Position numbers and translations under genes: made by a program. Shown piece by piece: positions 42,924 to 46,067 of a stretch of DNA of 64,000 nt (position 1 is its first letter; the number at the start of each line of letters is the position of its first letter). Origin of the DNA: Candidatus Bipolaricaulis anaerobius (GTDB taxonomy: Bacteria; Bipolaricaulota; Bipolaricaulia; Bipolaricaulales; Bipolaricaulaceae). The notes beneath the pieces were generated by a model, which had not been told where the DNA came from, searched no databases, and was given only the letters and a program-made list of their open reading frames with translations. The stretch spans positions 620,001 through 684,000 of the forward strand of contig NZ_LS483254.1 in NCBI RefSeq assembly GCF_900465355.1, given 5' to 3'.

Positions 42924-43008
42924 GCGAAGGTGGCGGAATCGGCAGACGCGCTGGCCTTAGGAGCCAGTGCCGCAAGGCGTGCGGGTTCGAGTCCCGCCCT
43001 TCGCACCA
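42924..43008 (+). tRNA. tRNA-Leu (anticodon UAG)
   Basis: The acceptor GCGAAGG pairs with CCTTCGC, followed by A and an encoded CCA. The anticodon stem-loop is CTGGC-CTTAGGA-GCCAG. The long variable arm (TGCCGCAAGGCG) is as expected for leucine. First gene of a six-tRNA cluster. Confidence 0.95.
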
Positions 43009-43032
43009 CCTGGCCTCAAGAGCATTCGCCCG

Positions 43033-43038
43033 TATAAT
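43033..43038 (+). promoter_or_regulatory. -10 element between tRNA-Leu and tRNA-Gly
   Basis: A consensus TATAAT 12 bp before tRNA-Gly; no strong -35. It may start transcription of the rest of the tRNA cluster. Confidence 0.4.
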
Positions 43039-43049
43039 CCCAGGGTCAG

Positions 43050-43122
43050 GCGGGAATAGCTCAGTTGGTAGAGCGCCACCTTGCCAAGGTGGAGGGCGCG
43101 GGTTCGACCCCCGTTTCCCGCT
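43050..43122 (+). tRNA. tRNA-Gly (anticodon GCC)
   Basis: The acceptor GCGGGAA pairs with TTCCCGC, discriminator T. The anticodon arm is CCACC-TTGCCAA-GGTGG. CCA is not encoded. Confidence 0.95.
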
Positions 43123-43130
43123 CAGATCGC

Positions 43131-43214
43131 GCCGGGGTGGCGAAACTGGCAGACGCAGGGGACTTAAAATCCCCAGAGCGAAAGCTCGTGCGGGTTCAAA
43201 TCCCGCCCTCGGCA
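43131..43214 (+). tRNA. tRNA-Leu (anticodon UAA)
   Basis: The acceptor GCCGGGG pairs with CCTCGGC (one G-T), discriminator A. The anticodon arm is GGGGA-CTTAAAA-TCCCC, with a long variable arm. CCA is not encoded. It ends 2 nt before the initiator tRNA. Confidence 0.94.
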
Positions 43215-43216
43215 GA

Positions 43217-43293
43217 AGCGGGGTGGAGCAATTAGGCAGCTCGCCGGGCTCATAACCCGGAGGTTGCTGGTTCAAGTCCAGCCCCCGCAACCA
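43217..43293 (+). tRNA. Initiator tRNA-fMet (anticodon CAU)
   Basis: The anticodon arm CCGGG-CTCATAA-CCCGG has the three G-C pairs diagnostic of initiators. Position 1 is unpaired with position 72, but as A1 and A72 instead of the usual C1 and A72. CCA is encoded. The length is 77 nt. Confidence 0.9.
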
Positions 43294-43341
43294 GACTGTG
43301 GCAGGAAGCCCCACCGTGAATGGACGTGGGGCGAGGGTGTC

Positions 43342-43415
43342 GGCGGTGTAGCTCAACCGGCAAGAGCGCGCGGCCCATAACCGCGAGGTTCAGGGTTCGA
43401 CTCCCTGCGCCGCCA
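43342..43415 (+). tRNA. tRNA-Met elongator-type (anticodon CAU)
   Basis: The acceptor GGCGGTG pairs with CGCCGCC, discriminator A. The anticodon arm is CGCGG-CCCATAA-CCGCG. CCA is not encoded. The general shape favours elongator Met; a lysidine-modified tRNA-Ile2 has the same anticodon and is not excluded. Confidence 0.85.
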
Positions 43416-43421
43416 GTTCGG

Positions 43422-43497
43422 GGGGATGTAGCTCAGTTGGGAGAGCGCCGCGTTCGCAACGCGGAGGTCGGCGGTTCGACTCCGCTCATCTCCACCA
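43422..43497 (+). tRNA. tRNA-Ala (anticodon CGC)
   Basis: The acceptor GGGGATG pairs with CATCTCC, followed by A and an encoded CCA. The anticodon arm is CCGCG-TTCGCAA-CGCGG. Confidence 0.94.
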
Positions 43498-44840: not shown

Positions 44841-44869
44841 TTGACGGCTGCGCGCCCCGTCGGTATAAA
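44841..44869 (+). promoter_or_regulatory. Strong promoter of tRNA-Ala(UGC) and downstream RNA
   Basis: TTGACG (44841-44846), a 17-bp spacer, and TATAAA (44864-44869). The transcript should begin near 44876, about 40 nt before the tRNA. Confidence 0.7.
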
Positions 44870-44914
44870 AAAGCGTCCTGGGCGGACTTCCCCGAACCGT
44901 CTAGCCGTTAGTCC

Positions 44915-44991
44915 GGGGGCGTAGCTCAGTTTGGGAGAGCACCGGCTTTGCAAGCCGGGGGTCGGCGGTTCGATCCCGCTCGCCTCCACCA
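44915..44991 (+). tRNA. tRNA-Ala (anticodon UGC)
   Basis: The acceptor GGGGGCG pairs with CGCCTCC, followed by A and an encoded CCA. The anticodon arm is CCGGC-TTTGCAA-GCCGG. It stands apart from the tRNA cluster with its own promoter. A GGCC-TTCG-GGCC mini-hairpin follows the CCA directly. Confidence 0.94.
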
Positions 44992-45076
44992 GGCCTTCGG
45001 GCCGGCGTGCCCCCTCACCCGTGTTCGTGCCCGTCGCCTGAGGAGCCCCTAGCCGCAACGCGCGTACAGACCGGGG

Positions 45077-45193
45077 GATAGGGCGATCCACTGGACCTCC
45101 ATGGGAAGTTCGCGGTCCCTCTATCGGGCGGGAGGAGCATGCGGGCGTGGGTAGGATGCCTAGCCCGCTTCCCTCCCATCCTCCGAGTTGTCC
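45077..45193 (+). ncRNA. Candidate structured non-coding RNA downstream of tRNA-Ala(UGC)
   Basis: No protein frame is convincing here. Two nested hairpins are visible. The first is 45077-45125: outer stem GATAGGG/CTCTATC, inner stem GGACC/GGTCC. The second is 45130-45177: outer GGGAGG/CCTCCC, inner GCGGGC/GCCCGC with a 16-nt loop. They are followed by the hairpin at 45194. I could not match it to 6S, SRP, tmRNA, RNase P or a known riboswitch. No + strand gene follows that it could regulate in cis. It would be released from the tRNA-Ala transcript. The exact ends are unknown. Confidence 0.4.
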
Positions 45194-45227
45194 GAGGGGC
45201 CCCGTTCGCGGGGCCTCTTCGCTCTTT
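45194..45227 (+). terminator. Terminator-like hairpin ending the tRNA-Ala transcript
   Basis: The stem GGCCCCG/CGGGGCC is closed by a TTCG tetraloop, extended by weaker flanking pairs. A TCTTTT run follows about 8 nt after the stem. On the minus strand it also lies right after the protease stop at 45228, so it may serve both directions. Confidence 0.55.
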
Positions 45228-46067
45228 TCACCCTTCTTCGCGGGGCGCCACCGGGCCCCGATGGCGGGGGAAGGGGAGGTACTCCACCGTGCGGGCTTGG
45301 TGCACCGGCTGCGGATAGAGCTGCATCAGCTTCAGTACCTCGTTTGGCATCTCCGCCGATACGGGCAGCCCCAGCCTCTTCGCCTCCTCGTAGGTGATGG
45401 GGTAGTCGTGGGTCCAGCGACCCTCGGTCAACACCTTCGCCAGCTCCTCGCACGTGTCGTCCGGGTACCGCCCGGCCAGGATCTCCTTCACCGCGGCTTG
45501 CACTTGGCGGATCGCCTTCTCCGCCGTGTCGGCCAGGATCAACGTGCGATCGTCGATCCTCTCCACCGGCTTCTCCTTGACGATCTTCAGCACCGAGGCT
45601 GCCGGGTACTCGCCGAGCTGGGGGTCCACCGGCCCCAGCACCGCGTGCTCGCACATCACGATCTCGTCCGCGGCCAGGGCGATCAGGGTCCCGCCGGACA
45701 TGGCGTAGTGGGGCACGAACACGGTCACCTTGGCGGGATGGCGCCTGAGGGCCCGGGCGATCTGCAACGCCGCCAGGACGAGCCCCCCCGGGGTATGGAG
45801 CACGATGTCCACGGGCACGTCGGGGCCCGTCATGTGGATGGCCCGGATGACCTCCTCGGAGTCGTTGATGTTGATGTAGCGGAACACGGGGAAGCCCAAG
45901 AAGCTCATGGTCTCCTGACGGTGGATGAGGGCGATCACCCGTGAGCCCCGCATGTGCTCGACCTTGGCGAGCAGCCGCTGGCGGGAACTCTCCAGCATCT
46001 GCCGCCTGAGGACGGGCTGGAGGGCGGAGAGCATGAGGAAGATCCAGAAAAAATCAAGGATGGTCAT
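45228..46067 (-). CDS. Membrane-anchored ClpP-class serine protease (serine dehydrogenase proteinase-like)
   Basis: The 279-aa protein belongs to the SDH/SppA-like group within the ClpP crotonase fold. An N-terminal membrane segment (about 2-20) is followed by the conserved RYININDSEEVIRAI and VLHTPGG loop. The nucleophile is probably Ser124 in HYAMSGGT, with ADEIVMCEHAVLGPVDPQ after it. Such proteases probably cleave membrane-protein fragments or signal peptides from the cytoplasmic side. It is preceded by AGGGGG and stands alone on the minus strand. A second, NfeD-fused member of the clan occurs at 52377-53642. Confidence 0.82.
   Translation of the reverse strand: MTILDFFWIFLMLSALQPVLRRQMLESSRQRLLAKVEHMRGSRVIALIHRQETMSFLGFPVFRYININDSEEVIRAIHMTGPDVPVDIVLHTPGGLVLAALQIARALRRHPAKVTVFVPHYAMSGGTLIALAADEIVMCEHAVLGPVDPQLGEYPAASVLKIVKEKPVERIDDRTLILADTAEKAIRQVQAAVKEILAGRYPDDTCEELAKVLTEGRWTHDYPITYEEAKRLGLPVSAEMPNEVLKLMQLYPQPVHQARTVEYLPFPRHRGPVAPREEG

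Follow-up and report, generated by a model that had tools for sequence, protein, structure and literature searches.

Small RNAs linked to tRNAs exist, e.g., the 3' external transcribed spacer RNAs, which lie just downstream of a tRNA. The small RNA CpxQ depends on Hfq, and we know of no small RNA in the CssRS regulon. In Pho box promoters the repeats replace the -35 element and stand at a fixed gap from the -10 element. Operators of PhoB consist of 11-bp direct repeats (PMC3978041; PMC2648988). In the CpxAR and CssRS systems of envelope and secretion stress, the regulator controls its own operon and htrA (PMC3498368), and the Cpx system of Escherichia coli also has a small RNA, CpxQ (PMC4817254).

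The sequence described here is found 3' of tRNA-Ala(UGC) in the complete 1.32 Mb genome of Candidatus Bipolaricaulis anaerobius (G000), in a 64,000 nt stretch of DNA analysed as a whole and called the window (Table 1). It is quite probable that positions 45086–45224 represent an independent gene for a trans-acting small RNA, driven by an OmpR/PhoB-family regulator that would also control its own operon and htrA. The likeness to Cpx is that an envelope-stress two-component system controls HtrA/DegP together with a small RNA (PMC4817254; PMC3498368), and the likeness to CssRS of Bacillus and Streptomyces is an operon of an OmpR-type regulator and a kinase, with htrA genes under its control (PMC3498368). 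CpxQ derives from the cpxP mRNA (its 3' end), whereas the Bipolaricaulis RNA has its own predicted promoter, and no sequence relation between the two was seen. A further difference is that Hfq was not detected in the 14 genomes searched. In contrast to CssRS, the Bipolaricaulis RNA carries a box that equals in strength the one in front of the regulator operon. A short conserved motif repeated directly every 11 bp resembles the Pho box, but the motif is CTCCAC rather than CTGTCAT, there are four repeats, and the putative regulon consists of the kinase operon, htrA and the RNA and not of phosphate genes. The position behind a tRNA recalls the external transcribed spacer RNAs; the Bipolaricaulis RNA differs in its own (predicted) regulated promoter and in that the tRNA link is not conserved.

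Table 1. Features of the tRNA-Ala(UGC) and small RNA locus (window positions) and of the regulator gene
Feature	Position	Strand	Basis or remark
Promoter of tRNA-Ala, TTGACG-17-TATAAA	44841..44869	+	read directly; conserved in G007
tRNA-Ala(UGC)	44915..44991	+	
Predicted operator, four hexamers in 11-bp phase	45086..45124	+	phased alignment of 28 modules; box shared with regulator and htrA promoters
Operator hexamer ATCCAC	45086-45091	+	
Operator hexamer CTCCAT	45097-45102	+	
Operator hexamer GTTCGC	45108-45113	+	
Operator hexamer CTCTAT	45119-45124	+	
-10-like box GAGCAT	45135..45140	+	10 bp after last repeat
Predicted small RNA, ~80 nt	45147..45224	+	start inferred 6-8 nt after -10 box; end inferred at terminator
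Near-invariant RNA core GTAGGATGCCTAGCCCGCTTCCCTCCCATCCTC	45151..45183	+	
Intrinsic terminator: 11-pair stem, 4-nt loop, T-rich tail	45194..45228	+	hairpin 45194-45219
OmpR-family response regulator	G000:C1:1173261-1173956 = L108:3262-3957		receiver + Trans_reg_C

Homologues of the tail were sought in the DNA of 60 relatives. The RNA is present in 10 of 12 Bipolaricaulis genomes and in one genome of a neighbouring genus (G020), with 0–3 copies per genome (three in the one-contig assembly G009, two in G001). A first-pass annotation of the locus had pointed to a search for the same tail behind tRNA-Ala; it is there in the nearest relative, G007, which gives a full-length match (93%), while in eight other members of the genus and in G020 the matches lie within 45086–45186, some reaching the terminator, and away from tRNA-Ala. 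One homologue each in G001 and G009 is behind tRNA-Pro(UGG) and the other copies have no nearby tRNA. The genes alongside also vary between groups; examples are those for a PD-(D/E)XK nuclease and for an MFS transporter. The link to a tRNA is thus incidental. The third copy in G009 (L107, G009:C1:43478-43580) is more diverged but has box, core and terminator. In G010 a box-like module (L102, G010:C34:4362-4457) is followed only by CATCCTC of the core and is perhaps a decayed copy. Among named genomes, the core was matched mostly in assemblies of Candidatus Bipolaricaulota/Acetothermia, one of them named Bipolaricaulis, hence the genus name used here. A phage link was considered and rejected: the one IMG/VR pattern hit (L122) is without the box or the tail of the core and looks like a chance match.

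The tRNA-Ala(UGC) call and the promoter upstream of it were borne out; the promoter is seen by reading and in G007, and is not among the results of a mechanical promoter scan. A cluster of six tRNAs (Leu, Gly, Leu, Met, Met, Ala-CGC; 42924–43497, plus strand) is about 1.4 kb upstream. The tail 3' of tRNA-Ala contains a TTCG mini-hairpin, potential stems and the terminator. As had been stated, no close plus-strand gene follows the tail: the next gene is convergent (45228–46067, minus strand), has its end at the terminator of the RNA and codes for a ClpP-like membrane serine protease of the SDH type (Pfam SDH_protease). Co-transcription with the tRNA, as first proposed, stands in part. A search found no terminator between tRNA-Ala and the small RNA, and read-through is possible; the tRNA is not needed, in that the RNA has a predicted promoter of its own. 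It is unlikely that the RNA comes mainly from read-through of the tRNA-Ala promoter, freed by tRNA 3' processing as tRNA-trailer small RNAs are, and with the box as an auxiliary. The missing terminator and the copies behind a tRNA in G001 and G009 would fit such an origin, but most copies have no tRNA nearby and yet maintain box, -10 box and core in unchanged spacing, and the spacer between tRNA and RNA is not conserved outside G000 and G007.

Secondary structure does not account for the conservation. The tail had been described as structured, but the fold of 44992–45224 is no better than that of shuffled sequences (z = -0.66) and is ordinary for its composition. The two nested hairpins that were proposed (45077–45125 and 45130–45177) have complete stems only in G000 and G007. 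The inner stem of hairpin 1 has 5 of 5 pairs in these two genomes and 2–4 of 5 in the other 11 copies, and the outer stem of hairpin 2 has 6 of 6 pairs compared with 3–5 of 6 in other copies. Compensatory base changes in relatives amount to one, a U-A to C-G change in G020, and it falls in a different stem, GUAGG/CCUAC. This hairpin, with a 16-nt loop, can form in most copies; pairing of AGGAUG with CAUCCU is an alternative that is conserved equally well, and covariation cannot choose between the two because the copies vary so little. RNA secondary structure was rejected as the explanation on the z value, the lack of stem conservation and the single compensatory change. The conserved feature is the sequence itself. 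The locus is real and conserved, yet a description as a single structured tail of a tRNA transcript, 230 nt long, does not hold.

The 5' half of the conserved sequence, 45086–45140, which had been folded into a hairpin, is a predicted promoter with an OmpR/PhoB-type operator layout, i.e., a -10 box preceded by direct repeats at a spacing of about 11 bp. The module consensus consists of four CTCCAC hexamers spaced by 11 bp and followed, after a gap of 10 bp, by a -10-like box, which is GACAAT or GATAGT in relatives; GAGCAT of G000 is a poorer version. Self-identity of the modules at a lag of 11 is 0.54 vs 0.17–0.36 at other lags. The G000 copy alone has a value of 0.43, which is not significant by itself (about 0.08), so that the case for the 11-bp repeat rests on the module family. 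As half of the supposed RNA structure would then be a DNA operator and promoter, the RNA appears to have its own promoter and need not derive from the tRNA transcript. The lesson is that phased GC-rich repeats of an operator can pass for RNA hairpins.

The same module is found elsewhere. A model built from 13 RNA-linked copies (R1) retrieved further matches, which rest largely on the 5' half, and in many genomes the sequence 3' of most of these is an OmpR-family response-regulator gene. The module is upstream of an operon of an OmpR-family regulator and a BaeS-like kinase in G000 and about ten relatives. The G000 regulator has its best scores to MtrA, PhoB, YycF and BaeR models, all below cut-offs, and the kinase directly downstream has HAMP, HisKA and HATPase domains. 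A box-only model (R2) run over seven genomes gave strong matches only at the regulator operon and at the RNA copies, and weaker matches in G003, G004 and G006 upstream of the protease gene htrA, whose product is identified by a trypsin-like domain and two PDZ domains. The G000 genome has two strong R2 matches, of 44.9 bits (kinase operon) and 44.6 bits (RNA locus), with the next at about 16, and also a weaker site at htrA; within the window the match of 44.6 bits compares with 9.8 for the next.

The link to htrA was followed in 14 htrA loci, orthologues fetched from relatives, none of which was used to build R2. The best R2 match is directly upstream of htrA in 13 of the 14, and these are the top 13 of 39 matches in 59.7 kb. 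The sites carry phased hexamers. In L157 and L159 the automatic phasing is one repeat early, and a start one repeat later gives CTCCAC-CTCCAC-GTACAT and a weaker fourth repeat. The links between RNA, regulator and htrA through the box are not circular, because regulator promoters were absent from R1 and htrA promoters from R2. With the box upstream of both the regulator operon and htrA, the arrangement is consistent with a regulon of the CpxAR or CssRS type. In a different genus, an HtrA-like gene is preceded by a box-like site (L093, G035:C16:5521-5603), which suggests that the association of box and htrA may be older. G004 and G006 have the box before regulator and htrA, yet are without the RNA core; the RNA would thus be optional in the regulon, or lies in assembly gaps.

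Downstream of the -10 box the order is core, variable spacer and, in almost all copies, a terminator-like hairpin. The core is a near-invariant 33 nt sequence, GUAGGAUGCCUAGCCCGCUUCCCUACCAUCCUC, with 0–2 differences over 30 nt in 14 copies. This pattern argues against a decoy or leftover, in which a duplicated regulator promoter with a terminator titrates the regulator and the RNA is a by-product: the copies are dispersed and sometimes multiple, and target searches gave none, which fits a decoy, but conservation is highest in the transcribed core downstream of the box and not in the box. We regard it as quite unlikely. Another possibility is that the transcript is a small mRNA for a leaderless peptide that starts MPSPLPYHP. 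Most copies do have an ATG in the core and many encode MPSPLPYHP; however, the ATG is replaced by ATA in G020 and by GTG in G009a, several core differences alter amino acids, most frames run stop-free into the terminator, and longer frames are broken by a 2-nt indel just upstream. A peptide is very improbable.

In several respects the first-pass annotation holds for the RNA itself. The terminator-like hairpin was located at the end of the tail, and no reading frame is conserved among the copies, in agreement with the absence of a plausible protein; the locus thus has the sequence properties of a short non-coding RNA with an intrinsic terminator. The Rfam check gave the tRNA only, even at E up to 10, apart from two chance miRNA hits, and no match over the gathering threshold was found for the RNA here or at nine relative loci. 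The statement that it is not 6S or SRP RNA agrees with this; SRP RNA is elsewhere in the genome, while 6S RNA was sought in the G000 genome and not found. A 6S could on that account be hidden, and a diverged housekeeping RNA such as 6S, SRP RNA or tmRNA has to be weighed, but about 80 nt without a long rod and 0–3 copies per genome, together with the Rfam result and the SRP RNA found elsewhere, make this extremely improbable. Since Rfam has no match, the RNA (45147–45224) represents a new family but not a new kind of RNA: the shared box and the -10 layout point to a separate gene with a response-regulator operator in its promoter, a putative two-component-regulated small RNA.

The core of this small RNA is rich in C and U, and G-rich ribosome-binding regions are complementary to it. 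An 18-nt antisense target search gave match counts like those of the reversed-pattern control, and the one conserved antisense match is inside a heterodisulfide-reductase-like coding sequence. The start of a PKD-domain lipoprotein gene (L209:914-1609, L208, L210, L214), GGATGGGCGGGAAGCGG, is complementary to the core. G002 and G010 have 6+9 bp of pairing and G009 has less; the best pairing is in G004, which is without the RNA. No match to Hfq was found in 14 genomes by a search that was positive in five control genomes. A pairing RNA in these genomes would thus have to work without Hfq.

In the proposed mechanism, the phosphorylated OmpR/PhoB-family regulator would bind the four half-sites in tandem at 11-bp spacing; these would stand in for a -35 box and allow RNA polymerase to be recruited to the -10-like box. 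Transcription may start near 45147 and stop at the terminator hairpin, to give an RNA of about 80 nt. As the regulator is also predicted to drive its own operon and htrA, which encodes the envelope protease, synthesis of the RNA would be expected when the envelope or secretion is under stress. Its action is most likely in trans, the C/U-rich core (loop AUGCCUAGCCCGCUUC, tail CAUCCUC) pairing with mRNAs, probably at G-rich ribosome-binding or start regions, and synthesis of envelope proteins would be lowered. The RNA is apparently switched on via its own promoter by this two-component regulator and would seem to be the RNA branch of a response to cell-envelope stress.

The regulon prediction is strong for work from sequence. 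A whole small regulon (regulator with kinase, htrA and small RNA) may be readable in this way, with testable predictions for an uncultivated lineage. A search of open-access full text found no paper in which small or noncoding RNA and this phylum are both named. We propose tentatively, at somewhat less than even chances, that the new family serves as the RNA arm of a two-component regulon for envelope stress, in a candidate phylum that branches deeply and is without Hfq. The Bipolaricaulis RNA offers an opportunity to ask how small RNAs function in organisms in which Hfq is not found. If the proposal is true, the pairing of a regulator with a repressor RNA either arose independently or far predates the Hfq-based examples.
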